36,537 nucleotides of DNA from Saprospiraceae bacterium (lineage in GTDB: Bacteria; Bacteroidota; Bacteroidia; Chitinophagales; Saprospiraceae), in NCBI GenBank assembly GCA_020846655.1, contig JADLDL010000064.1:1-36537 (forward strand). The letters are read 5' to 3'. Below the pieces are notes generated by a model. That model had not been told where the DNA came from and ran no database searches. It worked only from the letters and a program-made list of their open reading frames with translations. The translations under genes and the position numbers were made by a program. Within the stretch, counting starts at the first letter, position 1, and each line of letters starts with the position of its first letter. Shown here piece after piece: positions 3,099-21,582 of this stretch.

Positions 3099-4325
3099 AT
3101 GCAAAACTGGCAAATCAAACTCTCCCTGTTCCTCAACTACTTCGTCTTCGCCATCCTGCTCAACAGCGTCGGCACCGTCATTCTTCAGGTCCAAAACAAC
3201 TTCGGGGTCAGCCAGTCCGGCGCCTCGGTGCTGGAAGCCTTCAAAGACCTCAGCATTGCCGCCGTCTCGTTTCTGGTGTCGTCGTTCATCATTCGCATCG
3301 GCTACAAAAACGCCATGCTGATCGCCCTGGGCATCGTCACCGGCGCATGCCTGCTGATGCCACTGACCGCAAGTTTTGGGTCCACCCCATTGCTGTTTGC
3401 CGCCGTAGGCTCCAGTTTTGCATTGATCAAAATGTCGGTCTACAGCACGATCGGTCTGGTCACCAGCGACAAAAAAGAGCACATCAGCCTGATGAATTTC
3501 ATCGAGTCCTTTTTCATGGTGGGCATCCTGACGGGCTATTTTATTTTCAGTTCGTTTGTCGATAGCAACAACCCTCAGTCCACACAATGGCTGCAAGTGT
3601 ACTACCTGCTGGGCGCTATTTCGCTGGCCGCTTTCCTGCTCCTGCTCAGTGCTCCGCTCGACGAAAGTGCCGCCAAAAAAGAAGGCTCCGGCGCCTCGCT
3701 GGATGAATTTGGTGAGATGTTCCGCCTGATGGTGGCGCCGCTGGTGATCGTGTTTGTGGTTTGCGCCTTTTTTTACGTCCTGATCGAACAAAGCATCATG
3801 AGTTGGCTGCCCACCTACAACCAGCAGGTCCTGCAATTGCCTGCCGCCCTGAGCATCCAAATGGCCAGTATCCTGGCCGGCTCCACCGCTGTGGGCCGCT
3901 TTTTGGCGGGTGTTTTGTTAAAAAAACTGAACTGGTACCTCGTGCTCAGTTCCTGCCTGCTGCTGGCCGGTGCGCTGGTGCTCACCGCCATTCCCCTGGC
4001 CAAAGGTGTCGACGGGCGCGCCGTCACGGGCTGGGGCAATGCCCCCCTGGCCGTGTATGTGTTCCCGCTGATCGGCTTGCTCATCGCCCCTATTTACCCG
4101 GCGATCAATTCGCTGATCCTGAGTGCCTTGCCCACACAAAAACACGGCCTTATGTCGGGTCTGATCATCATCTTTTCGGCCCTGGGCGGTACCACCGGTT
4201 CCATCATCACCGGCTATATTTTTGAACATTACGGCGGCCAAAACGCCTTTTATTTCTCCCTGCTGCCCATCACAGTCCTGCTCGTAGCACTTTTCTTCTT
4301 CAAACGCCAGATGGAAAAAATATGA
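3099..4325 (+). CDS. MFS sugar transporter (FucP/TsgA-like), probable trehalose or glucose uptake
   Basis: A 408-residue, 12-helix major facilitator protein of the inner membrane with no cleavable signal. It opens with NWQIKLSLFLNYFVFAILLN and has a central charged loop (about residues 190-205, DESAAKKEGSG) dividing two six-helix halves. The helix IAPIYPAINSLILSALPT is typical of the FucP/GlcP/TsgA branch of sugar transporters. Its last codons overlap the trehalase start by four bases (ATGA), so the pair is translationally coupled and the natural inference is import of trehalose, or of a sugar handled with it. The substrate itself cannot be read from the sequence. A weak promoter-like TACCTTTC lies at 3035-3042 without a good upstream element. 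Confidence 0.85.
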   Translation: MQNWQIKLSLFLNYFVFAILLNSVGTVILQVQNNFGVSQSGASVLEAFKDLSIAAVSFLVSSFIIRIGYKNAMLIALGIVTGACLLMPLTASFGSTPLLFAAVGSSFALIKMSVYSTIGLVTSDKKEHISLMNFIESFFMVGILTGYFIFSSFVDSNNPQSTQWLQVYYLLGAISLAAFLLLLSAPLDESAAKKEGSGASLDEFGEMFRLMVAPLVIVFVVCAFFYVLIEQSIMSWLPTYNQQVLQLPAALSIQMASILAGSTAVGRFLAGVLLKKLNWYLVLSSCLLLAGALVLTAIPLAKGVDGRAVTGWGNAPLAVYVFPLIGLLIAPIYPAINSLILSALPTQKHGLMSGLIIIFSALGGTTGSIITGYIFEHYGGQNAFYFSLLPITVLLVALFFFKRQMEKI

Positions 4326-5806
4326 AACCCCGGTTTTTGATCGAAAGCCTGTCGCCACTCTACGAAGACGTCCAGTTGGCCGGCATTTTTCCCGATTCCA
4401 AATATTTCCCCGATTGCCGGCCCCGGGCCGCCGCCCAAAGCATTGTTGCGGCCTACCAGCGCGCCAAACAGGCGCCCGGCTTTGACCTGAAAACCTTTGT
4501 CGACACCCATTTTGACCCGCCCCATACGCCGGACACGCACTACGAATCGGCCGGTAAACCGCTCGCTTCTCACCTGCCGGCGCTCTGGGACGTACTGACC
4601 CGCCGCCCCGACAGCCTGGGCGGCACGCTTATTCCCTTGCCCTTCCCGTACATCGTGCCGGGCGGGCGCTTTCGCGAAGTTTACTACTGGGACAGTTATT
4701 TCACCATGCTGGGCCTCCAGGTGTCCGGCCGAAAAGACTTGATCCAGCACATGGTGGACAATTTTGCGTTCCTCATTGATACACTGGGTTTTATCCCCAA
4801 TGGCAACCGGACCTACTACCTGGGGCGTTCGCAGCCGCCCTTTTTTGTCCTGATGGTGGGCCTGCTGGCCGATCTGAAAGGGCCGGAAACCTGGATGCGT
4901 TACCGCCCCCAACTGGAAGCCGAATACCGGTTTTGGATGCAGGGTGCGCAAAAAAAGGCGCTGGACCAGCAGGCGCACCGCCGCATCGTCCGGCTCCCCG
5001 ACGGCAGCCTGCTCAACCGCTATTGGGATGACTCCGACGCGCCCCGCCCGGAAGCCTATGTCGAAGACCTGCACATCGCCCAACAGACCGGCTCCGCCGA
5101 TACCTGCCGCCACATCCGCGCTGCGGCCGAATCCGGCTGGGATTTCAGCAGCCGCTGGTTTGCCGACGGCCAGCACATGGAAACCATCCAGACCACCCAC
5201 CTGATTCCCGTCGACCTCAATTGCCTCCTGCTGGCCCTGGAAGAAGCGCTGGCCAAGATTTATGCGGCCGCCGGTGAACACGCGCAGGCCGGGAAATTTC
5301 AGGTTAAAGTTGCTCGCCGCCAATCGGCGATCCAACAGTATTGCTGGGACGAACAGAAAGGTTTCTTTTTTGATTTTCAGTTTCGGACGCAGGCTTTTTC
5401 CAACGAATGGACCCTGGCTGCTGTTTTTCCGCTGTTTTTCCGGGTCGCAACCGCCGATCAGGCTGCGCGGGTGGCCGCCCATTTGTCCGACAAATTTTTA
5501 TGCCCCGGCGGACTGCGCACCACCTGCAGCAGCACCGGCCAGCAATGGGACGCTCCCAACGGCTGGGCGCCCCTCCAATGGATCGCCTACCAGGGCCTTC
5601 GGCACGACGGCCACACCCAACTCGCCGGCGAAATCCGCCGCCGCTGGATGCACACCGCCGAACAAGTCTACGCCCGCACCGGAAAAATGATGGAAAAATA
5701 CAACGTCCTGGAACCCGAACTCAAGGCCGGCGGCGGCGAATACCCCAACCAGGATGGTTTCGGCTGGACCAACGGCGTTTATTTGCGGCTGTCTCGCGAA
5801 AAATGA
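4322..5806 (+). CDS. treF: Cytoplasmic alpha,alpha-trehalase, GH37
   Basis: Hydrolyses trehalose to two glucose molecules. Both GH37 signatures are present: PGGRFREVYYWDSY (about residues 110-123) and QWDAPNGWAP (about 407-416). By comparison with E. coli trehalases, the catalytic acid Asp lies in ESGWDFSSRW (about 272-281) and the catalytic base Glu in GGGEYPNQDGFGWTNG (about 470-485). There is no signal peptide, so the enzyme acts on imported trehalose in the cytoplasm, like TreF. At 494 residues it has the normal family length. The gene overlaps the upstream MFS transporter by 4 bp. The heptamer repeat element R1-A begins 7 bp after the stop codon. Confidence 0.95.
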   Translation: MKPRFLIESLSPLYEDVQLAGIFPDSKYFPDCRPRAAAQSIVAAYQRAKQAPGFDLKTFVDTHFDPPHTPDTHYESAGKPLASHLPALWDVLTRRPDSLGGTLIPLPFPYIVPGGRFREVYYWDSYFTMLGLQVSGRKDLIQHMVDNFAFLIDTLGFIPNGNRTYYLGRSQPPFFVLMVGLLADLKGPETWMRYRPQLEAEYRFWMQGAQKKALDQQAHRRIVRLPDGSLLNRYWDDSDAPRPEAYVEDLHIAQQTGSADTCRHIRAAAESGWDFSSRWFADGQHMETIQTTHLIPVDLNCLLLALEEALAKIYAAAGEHAQAGKFQVKVARRQSAIQQYCWDEQKGFFFDFQFRTQAFSNEWTLAAVFPLFFRVATADQAARVAAHLSDKFLCPGGLRTTCSSTGQQWDAPNGWAPLQWIAYQGLRHDGHTQLAGEIRRRWMHTAEQVYARTGKMMEKYNVLEPELKAGGGEYPNQDGFGWTNGVYLRLSREK

Positions 5807-5813
5807 TGGGTTT

Positions 5814-6025
5814 GTTTTTCGTGTTTCGGGGTGCGGGGTGCGTGTTTCGTGTTTCGAGGTGCGTGTTTCGTGTTTCGGGGTGCGGGTTTCGTGGTGCGGG
5901 GTGCACAAAATGGCTTGGAATTATACACCCTGATTTTACTTCTTGAGAAAAACATACTTCGAGCGCCCCGAAACACGCACCCCGCGCCCCGAAACACGCA
6001 CCACGCACCACGAAACACGAAAATC
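5814..6025. repeat. R1-A: heptamer-word inverted-repeat element with 58-bp core
   Basis: Left arm (5814-5904) is 13 consecutive 7-bp words, mostly GTGTTTC and GGGGTGC. The core (5905-5962) begins ACAAAATGGCTTGG and contains ACACCCTGATTTT and GAGAAAAACATACTT. Right arm (5963-6025) is nine words of the complementary type, mostly GAAACAC and GCACCCC/GCGCCCC/GCACCAC, the last one degenerate. The arms can pair into a long hairpin with the core in the loop. The core is about 83% identical to the core of R1-B in reverse orientation, and the long and short arms swap sides accordingly, so this is one defined element and not random low complexity. It follows the trehalase stop and abuts the S23 gene stop. 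Confidence 0.9.
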
Positions 6026-6377
6026 ACTTTTCCAAATAATTAATGTACCCGTTAATCAATTGGCGGCATTTGATGATTTTGGAAAGAATGGCAGACAGGG
6101 TTGGCTCGGCGATACAATTCAGCTCATGCGCAATCAGGATTTGGGTTTCCAACTCGAAGAGTGAGCCGCGGGCAGTATACATAAACTGTGCTTTGTCCTT
6201 GTTCGTACGGCGCCCACAACCTTCTGCAATATTGGAAGGAATAGAAACAGCGGCTCGGCGCAACTGACTGCTGAGCCCAAAAACTTTGTGCTTAGGAAAG
6301 GTTTCTGAAAATCGATAGGTAGCAATGGCTAATTGTTTTGCTTCCTTCCAAACATCCAATTCCTTATAATCCACCAT
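6024..6377 (-). CDS. Four-helix-bundle protein, S23 / 23S rRNA intervening-sequence family
   Basis: A 117-residue protein with the typical S23 pattern: the opening DYKELDVWKEAKQLAIATYR, the signature SSQLRRAAVSIPSNIAEGCGR, and then ARGSLFELETQILIAHEL. Family members fold as an antiparallel four-helix bundle and assemble as pentamers. They resemble the diversity-generating retroelement protein Avd, and some are encoded in 23S rRNA intervening sequences. No molecular function is established. Here the gene is not in rRNA. It lies between two R1 arrays: its stop codon overlaps the last degenerate heptamer of R1-A, and its start is 29 bp from the solo array at 6407. It is also more AT-rich than its neighbours, which together suggest a transferred or mobile unit. 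No reverse transcriptase or variable repeat is nearby. Confidence 0.92.
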   Translation of the reverse strand: MVDYKELDVWKEAKQLAIATYRFSETFPKHKVFGLSSQLRRAAVSIPSNIAEGCGRRTNKDKAQFMYTARGSLFELETQILIAHELNCIAEPTLSAILSKIIKCRQLINGYINYLEK

Positions 6378-6384
6378 AAAACAT

Positions 6385-9237
6385 CTATTTTTTCATAAAT
6401 AATCCCGAAACACGCGCCCCGAAACACGAAATACGAACCACGCACCCCGAACCCCGCACCCCGAAACACGCACCCCGAAACACGAAATACGAAACACCAA
6501 CCACCAAAAAAACCACCCACCACCAATGCCAGGACCAGGGCATGTCGACCGGGCGGTTGGCGCCCACGGCCACCATGCCCGCCCAGAAATAGGGCGTCTG
6601 CCAAGCCGCGCCAATCGAGTTGTCGCCGAGGTACTGCAACTTAGCCTGCCGCAGGGCCGCCCCCACGGGTTTGCCGTTGCGCAAGGAGCCATAAAACGAC
6701 TGAAACAGGCGCGTGCTGCTCCGGTCATTGACCGTCCAAAGGCTCGACAGAATACAGGCCGCTCCTGAGTGGGCAAAGGCCCGTGCCAGGCTCATCACCC
6801 CTTCGCCGCTTTGCTCGGCGCCGATGCCGGTCTGGCAGGCGCTGAGCACGACCAATTCGGCGTGCAGCGACAAGGTGTAAATGTCCGGCAGCAACAGTGC
6901 TTCGTCGTAGAGTTCGATGCGTGGCGGCAGGCTGTCCTGCTGGTCGGCGCGGGCATGCGTACACAAGTGTAGCAACCGGTATCGCCCGGCTTCAGCACAG
7001 AACCGCTTCGCTCGGGCCTCCGCCCCGAGCCAGCTCTCCGGACTGCCGGCCGGCAGGGCATTCCATTCGGCGGCGCCGGCTGGCAAGGGTGCCAGCCCGC
7101 GTTCGCTGCCCGGAAACAAAGGAGCCAGGCCCAGGAAAAAATCAGGGGCGGTTCCCGCAAAGGCTTCCTGCTGTTGCAAGGTTGCCCAGGACCAGGCATA
7201 CCGAATTTCCTGTCGGCAAATCAAATAGTCTGCCCTGCGCAAGCTCGCACCGGGCGCAGGCCGCGAGCGAAGCAGGGCTTCAAATGGAACAAAATGCAAC
7301 AAACCGTCGGGCACAAGGCAGAGCCGTTGCGCGGAAGCCGTTTCGGGTGGCAAAAGTTGTTGGCCCAGGGCGTAGGCCAGTTCGAGGTAGCCGGCCGGAT
7401 CGGCCAGGATGGCATTGGCATCTTTGAAAAAACCTAAAAAACGCTGCAATTGCCCTTGCAACATGCTGTCGTAGGGGATGCGGCGCCAATACATCGGGCC
7501 GCTGTTGTTGCACAGGAAAATATCCAGGAAGGATTCGCTGCGGAAATATTCCACCAGCAGTTCGCCGGCTGCCATCCGGCCGCTGCCGGGCTCCGGCGCG
7601 GCGCTGTCCAGGCCATACAAATGCGGGTAACTCTGGTACAAGGATTTTCTCAACGCGTTGATCTTGCCCTGGAGCGCATCGGCATCCGACACCCATTGCT
7701 GTCGTTGGGCATGCTCGCGATACAGGAGGTATTGCCGCTCGTACCAGGCTTTGCTTTTTTCCATGGCCTCCAATTGGGCAAAACGCGCGTCTTTGCCGGC
7801 GAGGCGCTGGCGGATGAGGTTGTCGCGCAAGTTCTCGAGCAACAACACCGCGCGGCTGCGCTCGGCAATGGCAAAGCCTTTTTTCAACCACTCCTGCGCG
7901 CCTGTTTTTTCATACAACCAGCGGGCTACCTGCAAGGCCGATGCTTCGCGGCGGCGCGCGATGTTTTGCAGCCCAATCTTGGACGACCGGTACTGAAACA
8001 CTTGCCGGACGCGCCACTCGGCCTGCCAGGCCAGGTCGTGGCAGTCCATGGCCAGCCGCAGCCAATCGACACGGCCGCTGTGCCGGTAGAGCGCTTCGGC
8101 AGCGGCCGCTTTGGCGCCCAGGGCCTCGTAGATGGTGTTTTCTTCGTAAAAAAGAGTGGCTGCCGGATTGTTTTCCACCCGGTCTGAGCGAAATTCCGGC
8201 AATACGGCGCGCAAGGCCTGGTGGGCGGCGTCCAGGGCGGCGGTCCACTGGCCTTGCGCCTGGTACAAACCGGCAAGCGCCAAATGGGCTTTTCCGACAT
8301 CGCGGGAGAACGGGCCAAAGGCCGCCAAGGCGCTGGCAAGCGCCTGCCGGAGCAAGTGTTGGGCCTCGCCCCATTGCCCGTTTTTGAGCCGGATCAGTCC
8401 GGCCGTTCGTTGGGTGTAAGCGCGGTATTCGAGGGCTTCCGGTCCGGCTGCCAAGCCCGGCAGGAGGCGCAGGGCGGCTTCTGCGGTGGGCCAGGCCAGG
8501 CGGGGCAGGCCCTGGTCGAGTTGGGTGCGGGCCAGGCCAGTCAGGAGCAGCAGCCGTTTGTCGGCTGGCGCCCCCGGCAGTGCCAGGCCGGCGCGGTAAC
8601 TCTGCTCCGAGGCCGAAAAATCATCCTGGTTCCACTGCGCGATTCCAATGTTGTTGTACAAACCGGCCCGACTGGCAAGGGCATCGGCTGGTGTAGCGGC
8701 GAGGGCCTGCTGGAAGATCGCCAGCGCTTTCTCGTTGTCGCCCAGGCGGGTGTAGTGGTTGCCGAGAGGTTTGTAAATCATTTCTGTAACCTCAAAGTCT
8801 GGGTCCTCCACGGGGTGCCGGGCATACCCGGCCGCCGCCGCTTCGTAGGCTTCCACGGCGTCCCAAATGCGCCCCAGGGCCGAGAGGTAGTAGCCCCGGT
8901 ACGACTGGAGGTACACCAGGGCCTCTGTTTCGGGGGCATTGGCGGGTGCCCGCCATTGGCCGGCCAGCGCCAAATTCAGGTTGTGGAGGGCGGCTTGGGG
9001 CGCGTCGGACAGGTAGTCGTGGGTTTCAATTTGAATCCAGGTCCACAAGGCCAGTTGGTCGGCTTTTCGCGCCAGTGCTGCCTTCCGGCCGGCGTAGTGC
9101 AATACGCTGTCACGTTGCCCGGTTTTTTCAAAATAGGCCATGCGCGCGTCGTATTGCTCCAGATCAGGCGCTGCCTGCGCGGCCAGTGTGGCAGGCAGGA
9201 ACAACAACAGCAGGCTGGCGCAAACGATTGGGTGCAT
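6385..9237 (-). CDS. Secreted TPR-CHAT caspase-like protein with repeat-encoded C-terminus
   Basis: A 950-residue protein with an N-terminal signal peptide (about residues 1-20, ending ATLAAQ), TPR-like helical repeats through about residue 400, a helical linker, and a C-terminal CHAT domain of the caspase/separase clan. The catalytic pair is visible: His761 in LHLCTHA and Cys801 in LSACQTG, followed by SLWTVNDRSS. A tryptophan-rich hydrophobic stretch (PWSWHWWWVVFLVVGV, about 900-915) looks like a C-terminal membrane anchor. From about residue 912 the frame runs through the R1-C array, giving a Cys/Arg/Gly-rich tail built of VFRGACFGVRGSG-like units before LFMKK. The native stop appears to have been replaced by the array. 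The gene starts 36 bp after the PKD-barrel gene and is probably co-transcribed. Substrate unknown. Confidence 0.88.
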   Translation of the reverse strand: MHPIVCASLLLLFLPATLAAQAAPDLEQYDARMAYFEKTGQRDSVLHYAGRKAALARKADQLALWTWIQIETHDYLSDAPQAALHNLNLALAGQWRAPANAPETEALVYLQSYRGYYLSALGRIWDAVEAYEAAAAGYARHPVEDPDFEVTEMIYKPLGNHYTRLGDNEKALAIFQQALAATPADALASRAGLYNNIGIAQWNQDDFSASEQSYRAGLALPGAPADKRLLLLTGLARTQLDQGLPRLAWPTAEAALRLLPGLAAGPEALEYRAYTQRTAGLIRLKNGQWGEAQHLLRQALASALAAFGPFSRDVGKAHLALAGLYQAQGQWTAALDAAHQALRAVLPEFRSDRVENNPAATLFYEENTIYEALGAKAAAAEALYRHSGRVDWLRLAMDCHDLAWQAEWRVRQVFQYRSSKIGLQNIARRREASALQVARWLYEKTGAQEWLKKGFAIAERSRAVLLLENLRDNLIRQRLAGKDARFAQLEAMEKSKAWYERQYLLYREHAQRQQWVSDADALQGKINALRKSLYQSYPHLYGLDSAAPEPGSGRMAAGELLVEYFRSESFLDIFLCNNSGPMYWRRIPYDSMLQGQLQRFLGFFKDANAILADPAGYLELAYALGQQLLPPETASAQRLCLVPDGLLHFVPFEALLRSRPAPGASLRRADYLICRQEIRYAWSWATLQQQEAFAGTAPDFFLGLAPLFPGSERGLAPLPAGAAEWNALPAGSPESWLGAEARAKRFCAEAGRYRLLHLCTHARADQQDSLPPRIELYDEALLLPDIYTLSLHAELVVLSACQTGIGAEQSGEGVMSLARAFAHSGAACILSSLWTVNDRSSTRLFQSFYGSLRNGKPVGAALRQAKLQYLGDNSIGAAWQTPYFWAGMVAVGANRPVDMPWSWHWWWVVFLVVGVSYFVFRGACFGVRGSGCVVRISCFGARVSGLFMKK
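6407..6504. repeat. R1-C: solo array of 14 heptamers, overlapping the CHAT gene end
   Basis: Fourteen back-to-back 7-bp words on the plus strand: GAAACAC (five copies) and GCACCCC (three), with the rest single-step variants such as GCGCCCC, GAAATAC (twice), GAACCCC and CAACCAC. There is no core and no opposite arm. It has the same word set and length as the long arm of R1-A and R1-B, but the word order differs, so it is a solo arm or a decayed copy. Read on the minus strand it codes for about residues 912-944 of the CHAT protein. Confidence 0.88.
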
Positions 9238-9273
9238 GCTCGCTTTTTAGCCAGCAAGATAAGCCCCGGGGCG

Positions 9274-11256
9274 CTAAAATTTCATCTCCAGGGCGATTTG
9301 AACAAATGGCTCCGCCTGACGCTTTCGCAGCACGGCGCCGGCGCGAATGCCCAGGCTGGGGCCCGCGCGCACGAACCCGATGCGCAGCTCGGCAAAGGCC
9401 GCAAACCGGGTGCTCGTTGCCGAATAGGGCGTCACCGTGGTCGTGTCGCGCAGCAACTCGGGCGGTGGCACATTGGTGCCGGCCGGTCCAAAAAAGCGCC
9501 GCAACACCCGTACCCGTGTCTTGTCTTCGCCGTCTTCCAGGAGCAGGCGAGCGGAAGCGCCGATGCCCAGCCCCCAGTACCGGGAGAAATTTTTGCGCAG
9601 CAAAAAAGGCACTTCGAACGACACGAAGCGGCGCTCGGCGCTGATGCTGCTGTCGCGGTAGGTGACCCGCTTGAAGGTCGCGTCGGCCAGGATTACGGAG
9701 TCGCGAAACACGAGATCCGGCAGCGCAGCACGCCCTTTGAGCCCGGTGAGCAGTTCTACCTGGGGATAGATTTTCCAGGATTTGTAGGGCGACAGGCTCA
9801 GCCCCAGGAAATAATACCCATCGCCGCTGTTTTCCGGCGGAAAGGCATGCCCGACTTTGAAACCCGGCGACAAGCCCGGTTTGAACCCGGTTTTGGAGTA
9901 GTTGGTGAAAATCGGTGGGTTTTTGTCAAACACAATTTGGGCGCGGCTGTGGAAACTGCGCTTGGCCATGCGCGACTCCGGCTCGATCCGGTAAGTGACA
10001 AATCCCTTGGTCGAGTCCTTGTCCGTCACACCTTTTTGCCGGCTGCCCGGCAGGTAAATGTTGCGAAAGGTGAACAGCAGGCCGTCCTGGGAAGAGGCGG
10101 TGTCCAGGCAACTGCCGTTGTAGGGTGTCGGCGGACAAATGGGGCATTCGGGGTACCAATCGAGCGGTCGCATGCGGGCCAGGTTGAGCCCCTCCGGAAT
10201 ATCGATCTGCAAGGCCACGGTGTGCGCCGGGCCCTCGCCATTGTTCTGGAACCGGACTTTGTAGTCGAGGTTTTTGTACTTCAACAAGCGGTAGTTGACG
10301 CGGTTGTCGGATACAAAAATGGCGTTGGGGTCGTGCGAACTGACGATTTCGATTTCCAGTTCGAAGCGCTCCGGCGCTACCATCGGGTCAAAAGGCTCAA
10401 AAACACCCTCCAGATGAATAAACGCTGAAGTGTCTTTGAGCATGTGGGCGGTGCCACTGAGGTCGACGAAGATGTTTCGCTGCTCGCCGGGTCGCAGTTC
10501 GGTGAAGCGCCATTGTTGCTCCTGGCGGTAGTGGCGGCGGGCTTGTTCGAGCATGGCCTGTACTTCGGCAAAGGGCGCTTCGGCCGGGGCCAGGCTGCCC
10601 GCGCCGCCTGCATGGGCGCCGATCAGGGCTGCCCAGTCTAGTCCCGGAGTGGCTTCCGGAAAGTCGGAAAGGGAGTAGCTGTTGTCGGCCAGTTCACCAA
10701 AATAGGTGCGGGCCGTATCGTAGCGGAAGTGCGCGTTGGGGAATTTTTTTTCATTAAAAAACAAATGCAGCCGGCCGCCGGTCGTGAGGGCGCTGCGGTT
10801 GCGGTAACTGAGGATGCAGGTCAGCGCCTCGCCGGATTTGGGCTGGCTGTTGGTTTTCAGGGCCAGGCCTTGCTCCTGGTTTTGAAAGACGCCGGCTGTA
10901 GTCGTACCGCCGCCACTGCCGCCGGTGAGCACCGATTTTCGCTTCTTTTTTGGTTTTTTTCCGTCGTCGTAGTTGTTGGTGAGATCGAGCGAGGCCGTGT
11001 AATTGCCCGGCTGGCGGTAGCGGTGCGTTGGGTTTTCTTCGAAACTGAAACTGCCGTCGCCGAACTCCCAAAAACAGGTGTAAAAGGCTTCCGGCGCGCC
11101 GGCAACCTGCGACAGTGCCGGCATCTGCGCCGTAAAGCGCGTGCCCTGGCTGTCGGCGGCGACGCTGAAATCGGCTTCCCGGGGGGCTGGGGTGGTGCTT
11201 TGCGCCAGCAAGGTTGCGGACCAAAGCAGGCAAAGGCAAGCGGCGAGCGTTTTCAT
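9274..11256 (-). CDS. PKD-domain protein fused to an outer-membrane beta-barrel
   Basis: A 660-residue exported protein. I start it at the ATG at 11256 because it gives a clear signal peptide (MKTLAACLCLLWSATLLAQ); an in-frame TTG 36 codons upstream does not. Order: signal peptide; a PKD domain (CFWEFGDGSFSFEENPTHRY); a basic linker (KKPKKKRK); a beta-rich region of the DUF11/DUF7619 kind ending VFDKNPPIFTN; and about 190 residues of alternating beta strands ending in Phe (FVQIALEMKF), as in outer-membrane barrels of the PorT type. In related surface proteins a T9SS sorting domain usually follows the IFTN region, so replacement by a barrel is unusual. It precedes the CHAT gene by 36 bp, suggesting an envelope module. 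Function not recognised. Confidence 0.8.
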   Translation of the reverse strand: MKTLAACLCLLWSATLLAQSTTPAPREADFSVAADSQGTRFTAQMPALSQVAGAPEAFYTCFWEFGDGSFSFEENPTHRYRQPGNYTASLDLTNNYDDGKKPKKKRKSVLTGGSGGGTTTAGVFQNQEQGLALKTNSQPKSGEALTCILSYRNRSALTTGGRLHLFFNEKKFPNAHFRYDTARTYFGELADNSYSLSDFPEATPGLDWAALIGAHAGGAGSLAPAEAPFAEVQAMLEQARRHYRQEQQWRFTELRPGEQRNIFVDLSGTAHMLKDTSAFIHLEGVFEPFDPMVAPERFELEIEIVSSHDPNAIFVSDNRVNYRLLKYKNLDYKVRFQNNGEGPAHTVALQIDIPEGLNLARMRPLDWYPECPICPPTPYNGSCLDTASSQDGLLFTFRNIYLPGSRQKGVTDKDSTKGFVTYRIEPESRMAKRSFHSRAQIVFDKNPPIFTNYSKTGFKPGLSPGFKVGHAFPPENSGDGYYFLGLSLSPYKSWKIYPQVELLTGLKGRAALPDLVFRDSVILADATFKRVTYRDSSISAERRFVSFEVPFLLRKNFSRYWGLGIGASARLLLEDGEDKTRVRVLRRFFGPAGTNVPPPELLRDTTTVTPYSATSTRFAAFAELRIGFVRAGPSLGIRAGAVLRKRQAEPFVQIALEMKF

Positions 11257-11368
11257 GACACAGTTGTTTTGCAGGTGTACTTCCAAAACCTGTGCCACAG
11301 ACGGGGCGGGCAGGCGGAGAGCACGTTTGTTGTTGTTCAAAAAAACAGGCAGGCGGTTGCTCAAAGAA

Positions 11369-11443
11369 TATTTCTAAGTGTCCTTAGTGCTCTTCGTGGT
11401 TAAAAAATTAAACCACGAAGAGCACTAAGGACACTTAGAAATA
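11369..11443. repeat. R3: perfect 33-bp inverted repeat
   Basis: Arms at 11369-11401 and 11411-11443 are perfectly complementary, with a 9-nt A-rich loop. Each arm is itself a degenerate 9-bp repeat (ACCACGAAG, AGCACTAAG, GACACTTAG). Repeats with this kind of wording are scattered through many bacterial genomes (general knowledge). It sits 6 bp after the stop of the 845-residue T9SS protein gene and 113 bp before the next minus-strand gene. An RNA hairpin of this strength would stabilise or end the upstream transcript, although no run of T follows it as in a classical terminator. Confidence 0.92.
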
Positions 11444-11448
11444 ACTAC

Positions 11449-13986
11449 TCAGTTTTTGATAATTTTTTGGCTGTGCCAAACCGAGTTTTTTCCCAAAACC
11501 TGCACCAGGTACACGCCGGCCGGGTAGTCGCGCAGCGACAGTGTTTGCCGAACCTGGTTGGCGGCCAGCGGCGTTTGTTGCAGGCGGCGGCCCAGCAGGT
11601 CGGTCACTACGGCCAGGGCCGGTTCCGGTAGCGCTTCGCCCAGTTCCAGCGTGATCTCGCCGTCGGTGGGGTTTGGGAACAGGCGCAGGGAATGCTCGGC
11701 AGACGCTTCGCCCGTGGCAGTGGCCTGGCCCAGGTTGCGGACGCAGATGTCGTCGATGCGGGCCCAGGACACATAGGCGCCGTCGTTGATGGCGAAATTG
11801 TTCCAAATGGTGATGTTCAGGAAACTGTAGTTCTGCGTGGGTGTCCAGAGTGCCGACGTGTAGGTAGCCCAGGTGGTGCTGAGTATGGGCGAGAGAAAAA
11901 TTTCGTCGCAAGTGCCGCTGGTGCAGTTGAAATAGTTGCTCAGTGGAGTCGTGGAAGCCCGGAAGCGGAAGCGCACGGAATCCTGCACCGTCGGCATCCA
12001 CATGCCGCAGAATTGGATTTCGTAGGTGTTGCCGGCCAGAAATGCCAGGGGTTGCACGATGCCTTCGCCCACCACCTGGTTGCCCCACATCTGGATGGCG
12101 CCCATGTCGGCACAACTGTCGTGCGTGATGACCTGCGGCGTGTTGAACCCGCTGCTCCAGTTGGACACCGTGCCGCCGCTGCCCAGGTTGCCGGCGTTGA
12201 GGCCGGCTGTAAACTGACCGTTCAGTAGGAGGTTGTCGGGGCAATCCTGCTGCGAAACGGTCACCACTACCTCGCGGCAGAACGTGTCGCGGCAGAGCAT
12301 GCCGGCGTTGCCGGCGGTGACGATCAGGCAAACGAGGTAGGTGCCGGAGTTGGCGTAGGTATGGCTGGGGTTGGTGGGGCTGGTGAAAAATGCCGTGTTG
12401 CCGTCGCCAAAATCCCAGTCCCAACTAAAAATAGTGCCGCTGGCTACCGTCGACAAGTCCGTGAAGGTAAACGTAGCGCCGCTGCCCGTGGTGCTGAAGG
12501 CGGCGTTGACGGCGATTTGTTGACAAGGATCGACCGGTGGCGCGGGGCAGAAGGTTTGTTTGTCGTCGTAGGCTTTGTTGAGCAGGCTGGCCGCCGAGAA
12601 ATCCTGCCGGGGGCTCACCTGAACTTGCCAGGGCGTCACCTTTGGCGTTTGTTTCAGGATCTCCGTTTCGGGGCTGTGGTAGCAGGAAGACTCGGTCAGG
12701 CCTTGCGCATCGGTTTTGATGGCCAGCAGGTTGTAATCGGCGTTTTGCCCCTGGATACGGGTTTGGGAATGGCCCATGATATAGTATTCGTCGTTGGCGG
12801 TGGGCGCCACGCGGTTGCCCTGGGAGGCGTCGCCGAGGGTGTACAAGCGGGTCCAGTGCACGGGCGAGCCGGTGTTGCCCAGGTTCAGGAGCAGGCAATG
12901 GCCGGTTTCGGAGCCGTCGGAAGTGGCGAAGGCTTCGGCTTTGCCGGTCAGGGCCAGGTCGCCGGCGCCGGTAAATTTAAAATGGTTGGCCCATTCCTGT
13001 TTGCTGTTCAGCACCTCGTAGTGGTTGGCCCAGAAGAGCGTGCCGTTGATGTCGGTGCGGAGCATCAGAATTTTTTTGTCGTTGGTGTTGGGGTCCTGGG
13101 AATAGCCCGACACCCAGAGGTCGCCGTCCAGTTTGGGGTCGAGGCTGCAACTGCCCTGGATGCAGGTGGCGCGCTCCTGGGTATTGGGCGCGATGTCGTA
13201 GGTGTTCAGCCAGGCCGCGCTGCCGTTGTTGGTATTGATGCTCAGGATAAATACCTCCTCGGCGCCGGTGGGGCTGGTGTAGGTGCCGGTTACGTAGTAC
13301 GCGCTGGGTGTGTTGGCGCAGCCTGGCAGGGTGGCGAAGGCGGTCACGGAAGCGCTGTGCAGGCCACCGCTGACGGTGTAGGTGCGGCTCCACTGGAACT
13401 TGCCGGAGCAGTCGGTTTTGACGGCATACACGCTGGAAACGCCCGTGTTGCCATCGATTTTGGTGCCCACGAGGATGAAATTGCCGGCGCCGTCCTGTTT
13501 GACGCAGGCACTGGTTTCGTCGTCGCTGGGGATGCCGTAGCGCTGCACCCAGAGGGGCGTGCCGCTGAGGTCGGTTTGGGTGAGCAGCATGTTGCGGCTG
13601 CTGCCGTTACGTTCGTTGGCGGCGATGATGTAGCCGGGTTGTCCGTTGCAGCCGGTGGCTTTTTCGATCCAGACGCCGGTTTCGCCGACATCCTGGCCGA
13701 TCATTTTGGACGGCGGCAACACGGCGCCCGTGCTGTTGAGCCACACCAGTTGGAGATCGCCGGCGGGGTTGAAGAACCCGGCGGGGTGCTGGGTATTGGT
13801 GCCGAGCAAGAGGTACTCGCCGGCGTTGGTGATGAGGCCGGAGGGGGCGCGTTCGTCGGTGGGCAGGGGGTAGCCGATGGCGGTTTGAAAAGTTTGGCCG
13901 CTGAGAACGCTTTGGCTCAACAGCAGGATGGCAGACAACAAGGTGTTGAGGAGCAGGGCCGGGTAGTAGTTCAAAAACTGGCGCAT
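11449..13986 (-). CDS. T9SS-secreted PKD-domain protein
   Basis: An 845-residue surface or secreted protein. It has an N-terminal signal peptide (about residues 1-30, ending SQSVLSGQ) and about 440 residues of repeating beta motifs of the kind WLNTYDIAPNTQE and IKTDAQGL, as in Bacteroidota propeller-like repeats. A PKD domain follows (FSWDWDFGDGNTAFF to SHTYANSGTYLVCLIV), then a jelly-roll-like region that starts DNLLLNGQFTAG and probably binds carbohydrate or protein. It ends in a type A T9SS sorting domain (about 770-845: LRLFPNPTDGEITLEL to YPAGVYLVQV and a basic end). The ligand cannot be inferred. The gene is divergent from the next plus-strand T9SS gene across a 257-bp AT-rich spacer in which I see no convincing promoter on either strand. 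Its transcript ends at the R3 inverted repeat. Confidence 0.85.
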   Translation of the reverse strand: MRQFLNYYPALLLNTLLSAILLLSQSVLSGQTFQTAIGYPLPTDERAPSGLITNAGEYLLLGTNTQHPAGFFNPAGDLQLVWLNSTGAVLPPSKMIGQDVGETGVWIEKATGCNGQPGYIIAANERNGSSRNMLLTQTDLSGTPLWVQRYGIPSDDETSACVKQDGAGNFILVGTKIDGNTGVSSVYAVKTDCSGKFQWSRTYTVSGGLHSASVTAFATLPGCANTPSAYYVTGTYTSPTGAEEVFILSINTNNGSAAWLNTYDIAPNTQERATCIQGSCSLDPKLDGDLWVSGYSQDPNTNDKKILMLRTDINGTLFWANHYEVLNSKQEWANHFKFTGAGDLALTGKAEAFATSDGSETGHCLLLNLGNTGSPVHWTRLYTLGDASQGNRVAPTANDEYYIMGHSQTRIQGQNADYNLLAIKTDAQGLTESSCYHSPETEILKQTPKVTPWQVQVSPRQDFSAASLLNKAYDDKQTFCPAPPVDPCQQIAVNAAFSTTGSGATFTFTDLSTVASGTIFSWDWDFGDGNTAFFTSPTNPSHTYANSGTYLVCLIVTAGNAGMLCRDTFCREVVVTVSQQDCPDNLLLNGQFTAGLNAGNLGSGGTVSNWSSGFNTPQVITHDSCADMGAIQMWGNQVVGEGIVQPLAFLAGNTYEIQFCGMWMPTVQDSVRFRFRASTTPLSNYFNCTSGTCDEIFLSPILSTTWATYTSALWTPTQNYSFLNITIWNNFAINDGAYVSWARIDDICVRNLGQATATGEASAEHSLRLFPNPTDGEITLELGEALPEPALAVVTDLLGRRLQQTPLAANQVRQTLSLRDYPAGVYLVQVLGKNSVWHSQKIIKN

Positions 13987-14243
13987 AGTAGTACGTTTTG
14001 GATGGTACGATGTTCGGGTGGATGGAAACGGCCGCTTGTAGTGGCCGCCTTTTCCTTACATCGGGGATGGTCCAAAACCTTACCCTGCGGAATGGAAAAA
14101 AAGTTTTTTTAGGAAAAAGAAATGGGAGATATGGTTTTAATGGATTGGCTGTGTGGGAGTTGTGTTTTTTTGGACCAGGGCTTGCTTCCATCGCGCAACA
14201 CCCCCGATCTTTACTTCATTGACTGACCTCATCCGTCCTTCCC

Positions 14244-16004
14244 ATGCACCGTGTTTTCCTACCCGCTCTTCTGTTGTGCATCCAATCCCTGGCCTTGGCC
14301 CAAAACCCTTCCTACCGCCCCCTGCATGATAATGTTTGGCTGATGGGCTACGAAAGTTTCGGGACCTCTCCCGATTGGGGCGGCACCCGGATTCTTTTTT
14401 CCTCCAACCCTCCCAAAACGATCCGAGAAGACCGGCATATGGATTTTGACATCACAGACGGCAGTATGAGCGACAGCAGTGGCCGCTTGCTGTTTTATAC
14501 CAATGGCTACTATATCGCCAATGCCAAAAACGACACGATGGTCGGGGGCGGGAGCATCAACCCGGATACCACCGTTTGGCAAAACAAACTCTACCAAGGC
14601 GTTTTGCCGCTTCCCTTTCCGGGGCATCCCAACCAATACTGTCTGATCCACGAAGTCAGTACCTTGGCGCCGGATATGTACAGTTTTCACAAAGTCTACC
14701 GCTGTCTGTATTCGATCATTGATATGAGCGGCGACAACGGGCGGGGAGTGGTGACCGAAGCCAACCGGCTGCTGCTAAATAATATCCTGTGCTATGGAAA
14801 ACTCACCGCCTGCCAACACGCCAATGGCCGGGACTGGTGGATCCTGATCCCGCAGTGGAACAGCGCGACCTATTTTTCCTTCCTGCTCTCTCCTGAGGGA
14901 TTTACCTACATGGGTAAACAACAACTCGGCGAGCCGCCGATTTCAAATGCAGGCCAGGCCGTTTTTTCACCCGATGGAAGCACCTATGCCAAGTTGAATT
15001 CGCCCGGCAGCCCGGGCGCCTGGCTGGATATCTACGATTTCGATCGCTGCACAGGTACCTTGAGCAATTACCGGAAAATATTCAAAAAGCCGGGAGATAT
15101 TTGCGGGTTAGCCATTTCACCCAATTCCAGATACTTATACCTTTCTCTTGGGCGGGTACTGTACCAATATGACCTGTACGCTGCTGACCTGGCAGGCAGC
15201 GAAACCGTAGTGGGCGAGTACGATGGGTTTCAGTCGCCACCGCTGTGGCCCACCTTCTTTTTCATGCTCCAATTGGCGCCGGATGGAAAAATCTACATGA
15301 ACAGCGCTTCCAACGTGAACCGGCTGCACGTGATCAGCGCGCCGGATTTTGCCGGCGCCGACTGCCAGTTTCAGCAACACGCCTTTGCTATTCCTACCCT
15401 GAACAACTGGAGCCTTCCGAACTTCCCCAACTACCGCCTGGGGCCGCTCGACGGCTCCGCCTGCGACACCCTGGGCCTCGACAACCACCCGGTGGCGCAT
15501 TTCCGTTGGGCGTTCTGGGATACCCTCTCGCCCCTGCATGTATTTTTCAACGACCTGTCGGTGTACGACCCACAGGAATGGCATTGGGATTTCGGCGACG
15601 GCGCCACCAGCACCGACAAGCACCCGGAGCACACCTATGCCGCCCCCGGCACCTACCCGGTCTGCCTAATCGTCAGCAACGACTACGGCGCCGATACCAT
15701 CTGTTACGCGCTGACACTGGGCGCTACGACCACACAAGCCGCTTCGTCCGCCCCCCTCCCCGCCCTGGCCTTGCCCAATCCTTTTCGTTCAGTGTTGTCC
15801 TTCGAGGCGCCGGTAGAGCCCTGGCAGCGCGTAGATGCGGTGTTGTTCGATGCCACGGGCCGGCTCCTGGCCCACACCGCCTGGCGGGGCCCGCACGGCG
15901 ACTGGCTCCTGGCAGACTTGCCCGCCGGGGTGTATTTTTACCAACTCACGGCGGACGACGGCCGGCAAGCGCGCGGAAAGGTGGTGAAGCAAGGCAAAAT
16001 GTAA
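14244..16004 (+). CDS. T9SS-secreted PKD-domain protein with propeller-like N-terminal region
   Basis: A 586-residue secreted protein. The signal peptide is about residues 1-19 (MHRVFLPALLLCIQSLALA). It continues with about 380 residues of beta-propeller type, including repeat-like phrases such as AVFSPDGSTYAKLNSPGS, LAISPNSRYLYLSLG and LQLAPDGKIYMNSASN. A PKD domain follows (EWHWDFGDGATSTDKHPEHT), then a type A T9SS sorting domain (ALPNPFRSVLSFEAPV to LPAGVYFYQLTADDG). The last three residues (GKM) and the TAA stop come from the R2-A repeat, so the native end was probably altered when the repeat arrived. Function is not recognisable beyond secretion and a likely binding role. Confidence 0.85.
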   Translation: MHRVFLPALLLCIQSLALAQNPSYRPLHDNVWLMGYESFGTSPDWGGTRILFSSNPPKTIREDRHMDFDITDGSMSDSSGRLLFYTNGYYIANAKNDTMVGGGSINPDTTVWQNKLYQGVLPLPFPGHPNQYCLIHEVSTLAPDMYSFHKVYRCLYSIIDMSGDNGRGVVTEANRLLLNNILCYGKLTACQHANGRDWWILIPQWNSATYFSFLLSPEGFTYMGKQQLGEPPISNAGQAVFSPDGSTYAKLNSPGSPGAWLDIYDFDRCTGTLSNYRKIFKKPGDICGLAISPNSRYLYLSLGRVLYQYDLYAADLAGSETVVGEYDGFQSPPLWPTFFFMLQLAPDGKIYMNSASNVNRLHVISAPDFAGADCQFQQHAFAIPTLNNWSLPNFPNYRLGPLDGSACDTLGLDNHPVAHFRWAFWDTLSPLHVFFNDLSVYDPQEWHWDFGDGATSTDKHPEHTYAAPGTYPVCLIVSNDYGADTICYALTLGATTTQAASSAPLPALALPNPFRSVLSFEAPVEPWQRVDAVLFDATGRLLAHTAWRGPHGDWLLADLPAGVYFYQLTADDGRQARGKVVKQGKM

Positions 16005-16215
16005 AATGTAAAATGTAAAAGTCAAAAGGGTGGTAGTGGTGATGGAAGGCCGGGAGGATAAGGTTGGGGTTGATTTTGGGTGGATTTTAAAGAATTGAAA
16101 ATCAAAGAATTGCCCCCGCTTCCCCGTTTTCAACGATATATGTTTTACACGCACTACATGCGGGTACGCTACCCCTCCCCACGAACACCCTTTTGACGTT
16201 TACATGTTACATGTT
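15996..16215. repeat. R2-A: AAAATGT heptamer inverted repeat at a convergent gene junction
   Basis: The left arm has three tandem AAAATGT words (15996-16016), then AAAAGTC and AAAAGGG. The right arm (16186-16215) is its reverse complement with AACATGT variants; over 30 bp the arms match at 27. Between them is about 150 bp with no recognisable gene. The left arm contains the TAA of the T9SS gene (16002-16004), and the right arm ends 5 bp short of the TGA of the DUF4406 gene at 16221. The segment after the left arm (GGGTGG, then ATGGAAGG) is shared with R2-B, so the two are copies of the same element. Confidence 0.88.
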
Positions 16216-16220
16216 GACTT

Positions 16221-16589
16221 TCACACCGTTTCCACGTCGTCGAGAGACATAAAAATGCGTTTGCCGTGTTCGGCACCGATCCGGATCATGTCGTCGGCGC
16301 CCTGCGAGGGCCCGCCGATGCGCAGGATGGCGTCGCAAAAGGAAATCAGCCGGATGGCGACAGGGTGAAAGAGGCTGTTGAAAATGGCGTCGCCGGTGGC
16401 TTTGGAGCCGGCCGTTTCGATGAGCGGCAAGGCAAACCACTCGCCCAGCACGGGCAAATGGCCCATTTCATAGAGGCGAAGGGCGGTTTCATTCATGGCA
16501 TCGACGTTGCGTTGGATCAAAATGGGGTCGTCGTTGGTGCCGGAGCGGTAGGGCCCGGCAACGAGAATCATCAGTCGTTGTGCAGACAT
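16221..16589 (-). CDS. DUF4406 / nucleoside 2-deoxyribosyltransferase-like protein
   Basis: A 122-residue cytoplasmic protein. The start MILVAGPYRSGTNDDP, the RNVDAMNETALRLYEMGH helix, LPVLGEWFALPL and the C-terminal ILRIGGPSQGADDMIRIG follow the fold of nucleoside 2-deoxyribosyltransferase-like proteins and DUF4406, which bind nucleotide-like ligands. I see no direct evidence for the actual substrate. The gene starts 15 bp after the transglutaminase-like gene on the same strand and is likely co-transcribed with it. Its stop (TGA) lies just outside the right arm of R2-A. Confidence 0.8.
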   Translation of the reverse strand: MSAQRLMILVAGPYRSGTNDDPILIQRNVDAMNETALRLYEMGHLPVLGEWFALPLIETAGSKATGDAIFNSLFHPVAIRLISFCDAILRIGGPSQGADDMIRIGAEHGKRIFMSLDDVETV

Positions 16590-16604
16590 TGGGTGCTTAG
16601 ATTG

Positions 16605-17552
16605 TTATGGACGAAGGCTTGGGTATGGCGCCGTCAATACGGCAAAATATTTTCGGTACGGGGTTTTATCCGAAATGGCGGTGAGTTCTACGTCAAAATG
16701 GCCTTCCGCCGGCAAGGGCACCCGCAGCACCGACAAATCGCCCTCTCGCTCCAGTTGGATCGTTGGCAGGATGGTTTCTTCGAACGTATCGACATTGCGC
16801 AGAATCACCCCTAGGGTCACCGATTTTGGAATGGCCAGGCGAAATGTCACTTGCCCGGAGTCGCGCTCCATGCGGGGTGGTTCGGGGCCGAAGCCCAGGG
16901 TGTAGTAGGCGTAGCCGATCTCCGGCAGGGCTTGGTAGAGCTCGTACGGGAGCGGATTGTCGTACAACAACCACTGGAGGCTATCGGGGTAGTGGCTCAG
17001 GGCAAAACGGGCCGGCGGCGGCAGGAAAAACAGGTCGCTGACGTCCTGTTTGGTCCATTGCGTAGTGGCCCAGGTGACGTCCAGGAGTTGCCACTGGCCG
17101 CCCAGGCGGACGCTGTTCCAGACATGGTTGCTGCGCCGGTCTTCGTTTAAAAATGACTCACCTTTGCCGTGGCCGGTCACCAGGGCATTTTCTATTCCAG
17201 CGGCGTCGAGCATGTATTTGAGCAAAACCGAAAAACCACCGCAAATGCCTTTTTTCCAGGCAAAAGTAGCCGCAGCCAGGTCGGTATTCAGGTCGTATGG
17301 CTGCCAGGATCGTTTGTGCAGGCCTTCGTGATCGTATTTGATGTTTTTGGCTATCCAGCAAAAAAGCTCCCGAACCCGTTCCGTGTCGTTGCGGGCCGGC
17401 TCGATCAGGCGGGCTGTGAGTTGGTCTAGTTTGGAAAAATTATCCTCCCGGATGCTGTCGGCATGGGCGTCGATGGCCGCGTAGGGATGGGTTTGGGCAA
17501 AAGACGAAAAGGAAAACAGGAAGAGTAAAAAAACAAGGCTGAAGTATCGCAT
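16605..17552 (-). CDS. Exported transglutaminase-like (papain-fold) protein
   Basis: A 315-residue protein with signal peptide MRYFSLVFLLFLFSFSSFAQ and a transglutaminase-like core of the kyphoscoliosis-peptidase type. The catalytic Cys is in KGICGGFSVLLKYML, the His in SNHVWNSVRL and the Asp in WQLLDVTWA, in the correct order. It also has ELFCWIAKNIKYD, which usually precedes the core. The C-terminal about 100 residues are beta-rich. I start at the ATG at 17552 because it gives the signal peptide; upstream the frame stays open only because it runs into the stop-free R1-B array. The protein would act in the periplasm or outside as a protease or crosslinker. Followed by the DUF4406 gene. Confidence 0.87.
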   Translation of the reverse strand: MRYFSLVFLLFLFSFSSFAQTHPYAAIDAHADSIREDNFSKLDQLTARLIEPARNDTERVRELFCWIAKNIKYDHEGLHKRSWQPYDLNTDLAAATFAWKKGICGGFSVLLKYMLDAAGIENALVTGHGKGESFLNEDRRSNHVWNSVRLGGQWQLLDVTWATTQWTKQDVSDLFFLPPPARFALSHYPDSLQWLLYDNPLPYELYQALPEIGYAYYTLGFGPEPPRMERDSGQVTFRLAIPKSVTLGVILRNVDTFEETILPTIQLEREGDLSVLRVPLPAEGHFDVELTAISDKTPYRKYFAVLTAPYPSLRP

Positions 17553-17644
17553 AGTCGAAACAAAACAAGCCGGCGAACCGGGGGTTACATTTAGCCGGGC
17601 AGTAAAACGACAAAGCCCGGGATTTAGTTGCCAGTAGCCAAATC

Positions 17645-17857
17645 GGGGTGCGTGTTTCGGGGAGCGTGGTGCGTGGTGCGTGTTGCGGAGTGCGGGGGCT
17701 TTCAAAGTATGTTTTTCTCCATGGGGAAAATCAGGGTGTAAAATTTCAAGCCATTTTGCGCATCACGAAACACGCACCCCGAAACACGAAACACGCATCC
17801 CGAAACACGCATCCCGAAACACGCACCCCGAAACACGCACCCCGAAACACGAAACAC
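17645..17857. repeat. R1-B: second heptamer-word inverted-repeat element, core inverted relative to R1-A
   Basis: Left arm 17645-17700 has eight words (GGGGTGC, GTGTTTC, GTGGTGC and variants). The 59-bp core (17701-17759) reads on the minus strand CAAAATGGCTTGAAATT, then TACACCCTGATTTT and GAGAAAAACATACTT. Right arm 17760-17857 has 14 words, mainly GAAACAC, GCACCCC and GCATCCC, followed by one degenerate word. The total of 213 bp matches R1-A (212 bp), and as in R1-A the long arm adjoins the CAAAATGG side. It fills most of the 362-bp space between two divergent genes with signal peptides; I see nothing else in that space. Confidence 0.9.
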
Positions 17858-21381: not shown

Positions 21382-21582
21382 GGAGGAAGAAATGTAAAAG
21401 GCAAAATGTAAAATGTAAAATGTAAAAGGGTGGATGGGGTCGAATGGAAGGTTGGGGCAAGGAATTTAATCCTTAAACAAAGTACAGCAAAGAAAAAATG
21501 AAACGACACCGTCGTTCCGGCAAGCCGTTCTCAACCTTTTACATTCTACATTTTACATTTTGCCTTTTACATTGCTTCCTCC
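21382..21582. repeat. R2-B: AAAATGT heptamer inverted repeat reaching into the dipeptidase coding end
   Basis: Arms 21382-21430 and 21534-21582 match at 46 of 49 positions in inverted orientation. The left arm reads AAAAGGC, then AAAATGT three times, then AAAAGGG. The repeat includes a GGAGGAAG segment which, on the right side, is part of the dipeptidase coding sequence (codons for WEEA); the ATG TAA end of that gene lies inside the arm. The 103 bp between arms shows no gene. It occupies the junction between the convergent T9SS gene (stop 21376) and the dipeptidase gene. Confidence 0.9.

Follow-up and report, generated by a model that had tools for sequence, protein, structure and literature searches.

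What kind of element is R1, a unit of two inverted arrays of 7-bp words around a short core that occurs twice in a 36,537-nucleotide stretch of DNA (the window) from a Saprospiraceae bacterium? The window is contig C64 of the draft genome G000 (6.4 Mb, 398 contigs, 96.7% complete), and one of its two copies, R1-A, touches a gene of the IVP/S23 family. To our knowledge, this widespread family, for which structures have been solved, has no settled function outside rRNA. We observe that IVP genes and inverted arms of short words occur together far more often than in controls, and R1 is probably the hairpin unit of a mobile, IVP-bearing element that resembles the intervening sequences (IVS) of 23S rRNA.

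Word arms as the repeating part of R1

Coordinates and word counts (Table 1) bear out the layout first described in an earlier note on this DNA: a word arm, a core and an opposite word arm, with total lengths of 212 bp (R1-A) and 213 bp (R1-B) and the long arm (13-14 words) adjoining the CAAAATGG side in both copies. The cores, put by that note at about 83% identity, are 86% identical over 57 bp and lie in opposite orientation. R1 is situated between protein-coding open reading frames (ORFs), not inside a 23S rRNA gene; the 5' arm of R1-A starts 7 bp past the stop codon of a trehalase ORF (4322-5806). The words abut without spacers, so that R1 lacks the spacer-separated repeats of clustered regularly interspaced short palindromic repeats (CRISPR), as had been recognized before, and an Rfam search of the window gave zero matches at the gathering score.

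The earlier note took a core of about 59 bp to define the unit. The core has only two copies in the draft genome (seven hits at E ≤ 10, the remaining five being 14-19 bp), and 99 relatives gave no convincing copy, the best match being 28 bp with an E value of 6e-4; the core was accordingly rejected as the repeating unit. The search for further core copies, proposed as the test of the element, thus removes an element defined by its core and leaves standing one defined by its arms: the repeating unit is a pair of arms, placed around many cores. The suggestion that the unit had inverted as a whole is likewise unsupported: with symmetric arms, two separate insertions, each in either orientation, account for the copies just as well.

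The arms belong to a larger population. A chance origin is excluded: G000 matches a 21-bp word pattern at 94 + 135 (229) places but its reversed version at 0 + 0, and no array came out of five base shuffles of the window. The pattern is present in 17 of 100 genomes, G000 included. With a word model we read 60 arrays in the window and 37 fetched regions, which had been picked for holding arrays or IVP genes; the array counts are lower bounds, as many further arrays end at contig ends. Among 22 cases of neighbouring arrays less than 900 bp apart, a GTGTTTC-type arm comes first and a GAAACAC-type arm second in 17, the order is reversed in 2, and both arrays are on the same strand in 3. The 17 pairs used to compare word order were selected as having the G/T-rich arm first, so their order is true by construction; recounted without that condition, this arm comes first in 17 of 19 opposite-strand neighbours in the regions read. 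The 17 units have spacers of 0 to 588 bp, which belong to several classes without mutual relation; some are palindromes that contain further palindromes.

Both arms of these 17 units draw on a common vocabulary but not a common word order: 384 of 500 swapped pairings reach or exceed the score of the true ones. Each arm of a G000 unit thus appears to grow independently. In 12 units from two related species (G006 and G031) one arm mirrors the other, to a degree that 0 of 500 swapped pairings attain, and the GTGTTTC/GTGTTTG arms lie around a hairpin. The shuffling of heptamers that had been reported for R1 therefore holds in G000 but not in these two species. In another relative, G009, the arms consist of GGGTAGA/ACCCTCY words.

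Table 1. Word arrays, cores and the IVP gene in the window
Feature	Position	Strand	Description
R1-A 5' arm	5814..5904	-	13 words, GTGTTTC/GGGGTGC and variants
R1-A core	5905..5962	+	58 bp, AT-rich
R1-A 3' arm	5963..6025	+	9 words, GAAACAC/GCACCCC/GCGCCCC and variants
IVP gene	6024..6377	-	117 aa; PF05635, E 2.9e-37; stop codon touches R1-A 3' arm
Second heptamer array	6407..6504	+	Far side of IVP gene; words and orientation as in R1-A 3' arm
Third pair	15996..16222	.	AAAATGT array 15996-16020, degenerate partner at about 16189-16222 (partner by eye)
R1-B 5' arm	17645..17693	-	7 words
R1-B core	17694..17759	-	66 bp; 86% identity with R1-A core, opposite orientation
R1-B 3' arm	17760..17857	+	14 words
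Second-vocabulary pair	21390..21573	.	Same layout; AAATGTA array 21390-21427, spacer, TTTTACA array 21537-21573

IVP genes between inverted word arms

The protein encoded beside R1-A scores 127.5 bits against the PF05635 (IVP/S23) profile, with a cut-off of 33.8, and is a member of the family; a profile that includes it matches the structures 2gsc and 2rld. The previous account of R1 had left out this gene, the heptamer array beyond it and another two heptamer pairs in the window, of AAAATGT/TTTTACA words, one of which has a degenerate partner. It seems fairly likely that R1-A, the IVP gene and the array at 6407-6504 form one gene-bearing locus, of which R1-B is a gene-less copy. The window locus, in which R1-A makes up a whole hairpin on one side, resembles the IVP locus of G006, and the IVP proteins of the two are 70% identical. 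In each of the three genomes examined for it (G000, G006 and G009), the words found at one IVP locus are the ones that occur dispersed as well. A CHAT-domain ORF on the minus strand (6385-9237) reads through the far array and ends shortly before the IVP start, and the array appears to provide the last residues of the CHAT-domain protein.

We scored the flanks of IVP genes in several sets of loci. The genus set comes from 42 genomes, G000 included, and holds 30 IVP loci, one per genome (G000 again included); two were excluded for a run of N (L355) or a contig edge (L364), leaving 28 or 27 scored. The cross-phylum set comprises the best 80 of at least 580 IVP relatives from many phyla, 77 or 76 of which were scored. 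For the main bracketing score we compared the 300-bp flanks with stretches 700-1000 bp from the gene (far control), and swapping flanks within the cross-phylum set gave a 99th percentile of 32, which served as the inverted-repeat threshold. Near-identical loci were kept in some sets (e.g. L472/L473, L496/L497), so not all of the following counts are independent.

The threshold is reached by 25 of 27 genus IVP loci (far control, 0 of 21) and by 47 of 76 cross-phylum loci (far control, 0 of 71); outside the Bacteroidota, 24 of 31 loci reach it. Direct repeats reach it in 14 of 77. Runs of period 7 are found in 24/54 near versus 1/42 far flanks in the genus and in 48/152 near versus 4/142 far flanks across phyla. 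A single-query search found no IVP protein in phage records at E ≤ 1e-5, yet there are 24 IVP loci in viral contigs, and 14 of the 19 scored, near copies excluded, reach the threshold. For plasmids, 15 of 29 records were fetched, all of them cyanobacterial; no far flanks were taken, and of the 14 loci scored (L476 is a near copy of L464) six reach a score of 32, with period-7 runs in 16 of 28 flanks. As controls we scored 20 of 30 Y1-transposase loci and 13 of 20 trehalase loci, excluding contig-edge loci and the window's own trehalase locus adjoining R1-A. The trehalase loci show no inverted arms (0 of 13), and runs of period 7, 8 and 10 occur once each in their 26 flanks. Period-7 arrays number 37 in the 87.6 kb of the 30 genus IVP loci versus 7 in 82.0 kb of trehalase loci, four of these being G000's own; Y1-transposase loci hold 3 in 90.9 kb.

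By eye, the arms adjoin the IVP gene in most genus genomes with differing words (GGACGGT, GACTGTT, GGTGATT, AGTTATG, and some 8-mers and 10-mers), and the loci follow two plans, arm-gene-arm and hairpin-gene-hairpin (e.g. L356, L358). The median gap between the matched stretch and the arm is 31-37 bp, and the median span is 506 bp. Period and polarity were tested at 79 loci with a score of at least 33, using 400-bp flanks and periods of 4 to 12. Of 63 arms with a clear period, 50 fit best to a period of 7 and eight to a period of 8. The test set no condition on polarity, and its cross-phylum form is independent of the selection made in G000; G exceeds C on the 5' arm in 73 of 78 cases, and C exceeds G in 5. 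That this layout often brackets IVP/S23 genes across many phyla points to an overlooked kind of mobile element.

Several plasmid IVP genes are placed between two genes of a common function: cas10 and a cmr3-family gene, cas6 and cas4 (twice), and two ribonucleotide reductase genes. At L462, L463 and L471 (3 of the 15 plasmid loci) the IVP genes lie between cas genes and are bounded by short repeated words, and they may be insertions rather than Cas accessory genes. L462 (901-1260) is an exception in layout, having AAAAGCT/AAAAGCC heptamers on both sides of the IVP gene in direct rather than inverted orientation. The accessible part of PMC10910872 includes the 23S rRNA IVP in a figure legend on CRISPR associations, and bracketing by word arms might explain this occurrence near cas genes.

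Movement of the units and competing explanations

The IVS of 23S rRNA possesses a terminal stem and is cut by RNase III. At the loci described here, too, an IVP gene lies within an insert whose complementary ends can form a stem; unlike the IVS, these inserts lie between protein genes and their stems are arrays of words of about 7 bp. If R1 is the hairpin unit of such an element, both arms would pair into one long hairpin in any transcript crossing the insertion, and double-strand RNases such as RNase III could cut the hairpin insert out. An insert that is excised from the host transcript, or ignored in it, would make insertion beside or inside operons tolerable. The words would lengthen and shorten by slippage, and gene-less copies could arise by loss of the IVP gene or be moved in trans by an enzyme. 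The computed folding z-scores are -7.1, -6.6 and -9.2 (20 shuffles), the last for the window locus, and a Nostoc plasmid locus folds at -7.3; because the arms are predicted to fold so strongly, it is possible that R1 acts as a structured RNA.

Movement was assessed in the sister pair G009/G007 (about 95% identical, blocks mostly 93-98%), since relatives of G000 are 53-69% identical in the trehalase protein (among the matches listed), which is too distant for a comparison of orthologous sites. One G009 element has GTAAAAACTTAGGT and ACCTAAGTTTTTAC at its ends, is accompanied by an 8-bp duplication and is absent at the matching G007 site. Among 19 terminal-repeat pairs (GTAAAAACTTAGG) in the fetched DNA of the two genomes, which include one site present in both (L375/L377), 15 are accompanied by an 8-bp duplication that has one mismatch at the most, where 2.3% would be expected. 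Some word-armed units, of one subfamily in these sister genomes, do transpose. At three shared sites, arrays of one to three words in G007 compare with arrays of up to 273 bp in G009, and at one site arms, core and IVP gene in G009 face only a minimal hairpin in G007. The proposal of a non-autonomous mobile element, made earlier for R1, agrees with the dispersed arrays and with insertion with terminal repeats and 8-bp duplications in the sister genomes, but no such ends were seen in G000. Inverted sequence in the flanks, taken as a mark of insertion into palindromes, was rejected as well: relatives give a weak signal (23 of 300 shuffles do equally well) and G000 none (128 of 300).

At L296 (5337-6690) an insertion of about 1.3 kb splits a G009 heptamer array and has a 99% identical copy elsewhere in G007. 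Arrays in L302 and L303 border on a similar end sequence, as if an insertion sequence favoured such arrays.

A number of results weigh against R1 being part of a mobile IVP element. Within G000, five IVP matches were found and the flanks of four read: in addition to the window locus, one gene has other inverted words, another has words on a single side, and the last lies between two TTCGATAT hairpins, in direct order on both sides. The AAAATGT words, which are dispersed in G000, are next to none of these four genes. Two of the 19 opposite-strand neighbours in G000 are in the reverse order, one of them sitting between two complete pairs. Direct repeats that could mark a target duplication at the outer array edge of G000 units do not exceed chance, as 275 of 300 shuffles do equally well, and by eye no fixed terminus is visible in their outer words. 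In the sister genomes, the gene-bearing G009 element that was compared (L296) is without a clear terminal repeat, and two other G007 IVP insertions face unrelated sequence in G009, with no clean empty site. The bracketing is also incomplete: 29 of 76 cross-phylum loci show no inverted arms at the threshold; a separate scoring places 39 of 77 loci above 32; and the 15 cyanobacterial loci, judged by eye, comprise eight with clear inverted words, four where one side alone has one or two words, two with direct words and one with none. In the genus, where vocabularies overlap and therefore raise the 99th percentile of swapped flanks to 60, only 17 of 28 loci exceed that value. Inverted repeats flank Y1 transposase genes as well (9 of 20), but period-7 runs occur in none of the 40 Y1 flanks. 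RNA pairing leaves the polarity of the arms unexplained, as arms of the opposite polarity would pair equally well.

Alternatively, R1 could be an ordinary miniature inverted-repeat transposable element (MITE) that has short terminal inverted repeats and 8-bp target duplications and depends for its movement on a DDE transposase gene located elsewhere; slippage would then have produced the heptamer arrays in a subterminal position, with the IVP gene as a passenger. We regard this as unlikely, though the G009/G007 pairs with 8-bp duplications fit it, three of them having long arrays (L296, L306, L309). The G009 terminal repeat, moreover, also bounds ordinary repeats without words, a further point against a mobile IVP element; a transposon may simply have captured word arrays, so that the transposing entity in G009 would be a MITE carrying them. 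The word-less family measures 160-173 bp, has ends like GTAAAAACTTAGSC and 8-bp duplications, and is found in both G009 and G007 (L371 13773-13944, L375 6097-6256, L256 8651-8823). In G000 such termini were not seen, and a MITE leaves unexplained why arms with unrelated words but a common period and polarity are found at IVP genes in many phyla.

Plain microsatellite growth, like that of cyanobacterial heptanucleotide repeats, would have IVP genes merely landing in repeat-rich intergenic DNA. It would account for the large differences in array length at shared sites and for the fact that most G000 arrays read have no adjoining IVP gene. We consider it improbable as a whole: the arms are inverted, mostly of one polarity and near the gene on both sides; the far flanks and the trehalase controls contain no inverted arms; and plasmid IVP genes sit, together with their words, between neighbouring genes of an operon.

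The unexplained polarity gives room to another possibility, in which the words are added to broken DNA from a template: aided by the Avd-like IVP protein, a reverse transcriptase would extend both 3' ends of the break by G-rich heptamers, and the ends would then be joined with or without filler. Such a process agrees with the polarity, which is nearly constant in that on either side the strand carrying G points 5' to 3' to the centre, with the common vocabulary without common order in G000 arms, and with the variable spacers. A structural homology of IVP with Avd, a protein of diversity-generating retroelements, is given in the available portion of PMC10053308; our IVP profile matched only 2gsc and 2rld among solved structures, and not Avd, at E ≤ 0.01. 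The mirror-image arms of G006 and G031 and the terminal repeats with 8-bp duplications in G009 also speak against end addition, which we hold to be very unlikely.

A last candidate is a repetitive extragenic palindromic (REP) element or bacterial interspersed mosaic element (BIME) moved by a REP-associated tyrosine transposase (RAYT) of the Y1 type; the arrays are palindromic, largely intergenic and dispersed, and one core class contains GTAG, a tag of one REP superfamily. The link of GTAG to such a superfamily appears in the portion of PMC3733652 at hand. A RAYT origin was rejected as barely conceivable, because G000 has no Y1 transposase match (in a draft of the completeness given above), versus 34 of 42 genus genomes with one, and no period-7 runs lie near Y1 genes.

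Described heptamer repeats and further arrays in the genome

The association of IVP genes with heptamer arrays, and R1 as a variant of an IVS-like IVP insert, is what appears to be new here. The components are in print: heptameric repeats and inverted pairs of them are covered by the accessible parts of PMC4692102 and PMC2700814, and IVP-family genes in large 23S inserts, together with the IVP/Avd homology, by that of PMC10053308. No paper tying IVP genes to heptamer arrays was found among the matches listed in the open-access literature, most subscription papers lying outside it.

A close likeness is to heptameric simple sequence repeats, also G-rich, such as GGGAATC in Xanthomonas and GGGGA(C/T)T in Nostoc (PMC4692102, in part). 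The same partial text counts 70 and 75 cases of two heptamer arrays in convergent orientation in Xanthomonas and reports three tandem heptanucleotides in Calothrix. Unlike the units described here, these repeats are presented in that portion as generally not associated with mobile elements and as having few inverted pairs in Nostoc; it makes no mention of intervening sequence, S23, ribosomal protein or xcc0516, the Xanthomonas campestris gene behind structure 2gsc. Tandem heptanucleotides also make up the Geobacter metallireducens elements, some classes of which are drawn as two-strand loops (PMC2700814, in part), and the TAACTGA repeats of Beggiatoaceae (PMC4679880, in part). Within these partial texts, both are interpreted as regulatory sites, IVP terms occur in neither, and the TAACTGA sets are direct with one inverted case. 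The BrickBuilt MITE of Porphyromonas gingivalis resembles R1 in combining tandem repeats with inverted ends in a small intergenic element, but the excerpt of PMC4596501 gives 23-bp units, compared with two inverted arrays of 7-bp words here, some copies with a gene.

The short tandemly repeated repetitive (STRR) sequences of heterocystous cyanobacteria are tandem heptanucleotides, described as tandem repeats rather than gene-flanking arms; heptamer words also flank IVP genes on cyanobacterial plasmids. Foldback (FB) elements of Drosophila resemble R1 in having long inverted ends of short tandem subrepeats and a centre that is variable or absent, and differ from it in being eukaryotic and in having longer subrepeats.

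A rule free of any particular sequence around IVP/S23 genes in many phyla makes the element nature of the family testable, and it offers an origin for the heptamer repeats of cyanobacteria and other bacteria. In its broadest form, which we think improbable, IVP genes would define a cross-phylum class of selfish elements whose ends are a rule (inverted, free, mostly 7-bp words with the G-bearing strand first); the heptamers scattered through cyanobacteria, Xanthomonas and Bacteroidota would then be remnants of these elements that lack the gene, with the words arising from a templated, telomere-like addition to DNA ends that uses the Avd-like IVP protein.

At L093 (4027-4508 and 9207-9934) and L095 (3883-4524), heptamer arms surround a GTAGTCCTCCCCC palindrome that itself encloses further palindromes. 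One of these inner palindromes is built of TTCGATAT words, the same that lie on either side of the IVP gene of contig C387 (L477). At L118 (4040-4180), a GTGTTTC array apparently continues as another 7-bp vocabulary, TCTCATC/TCGCATC.

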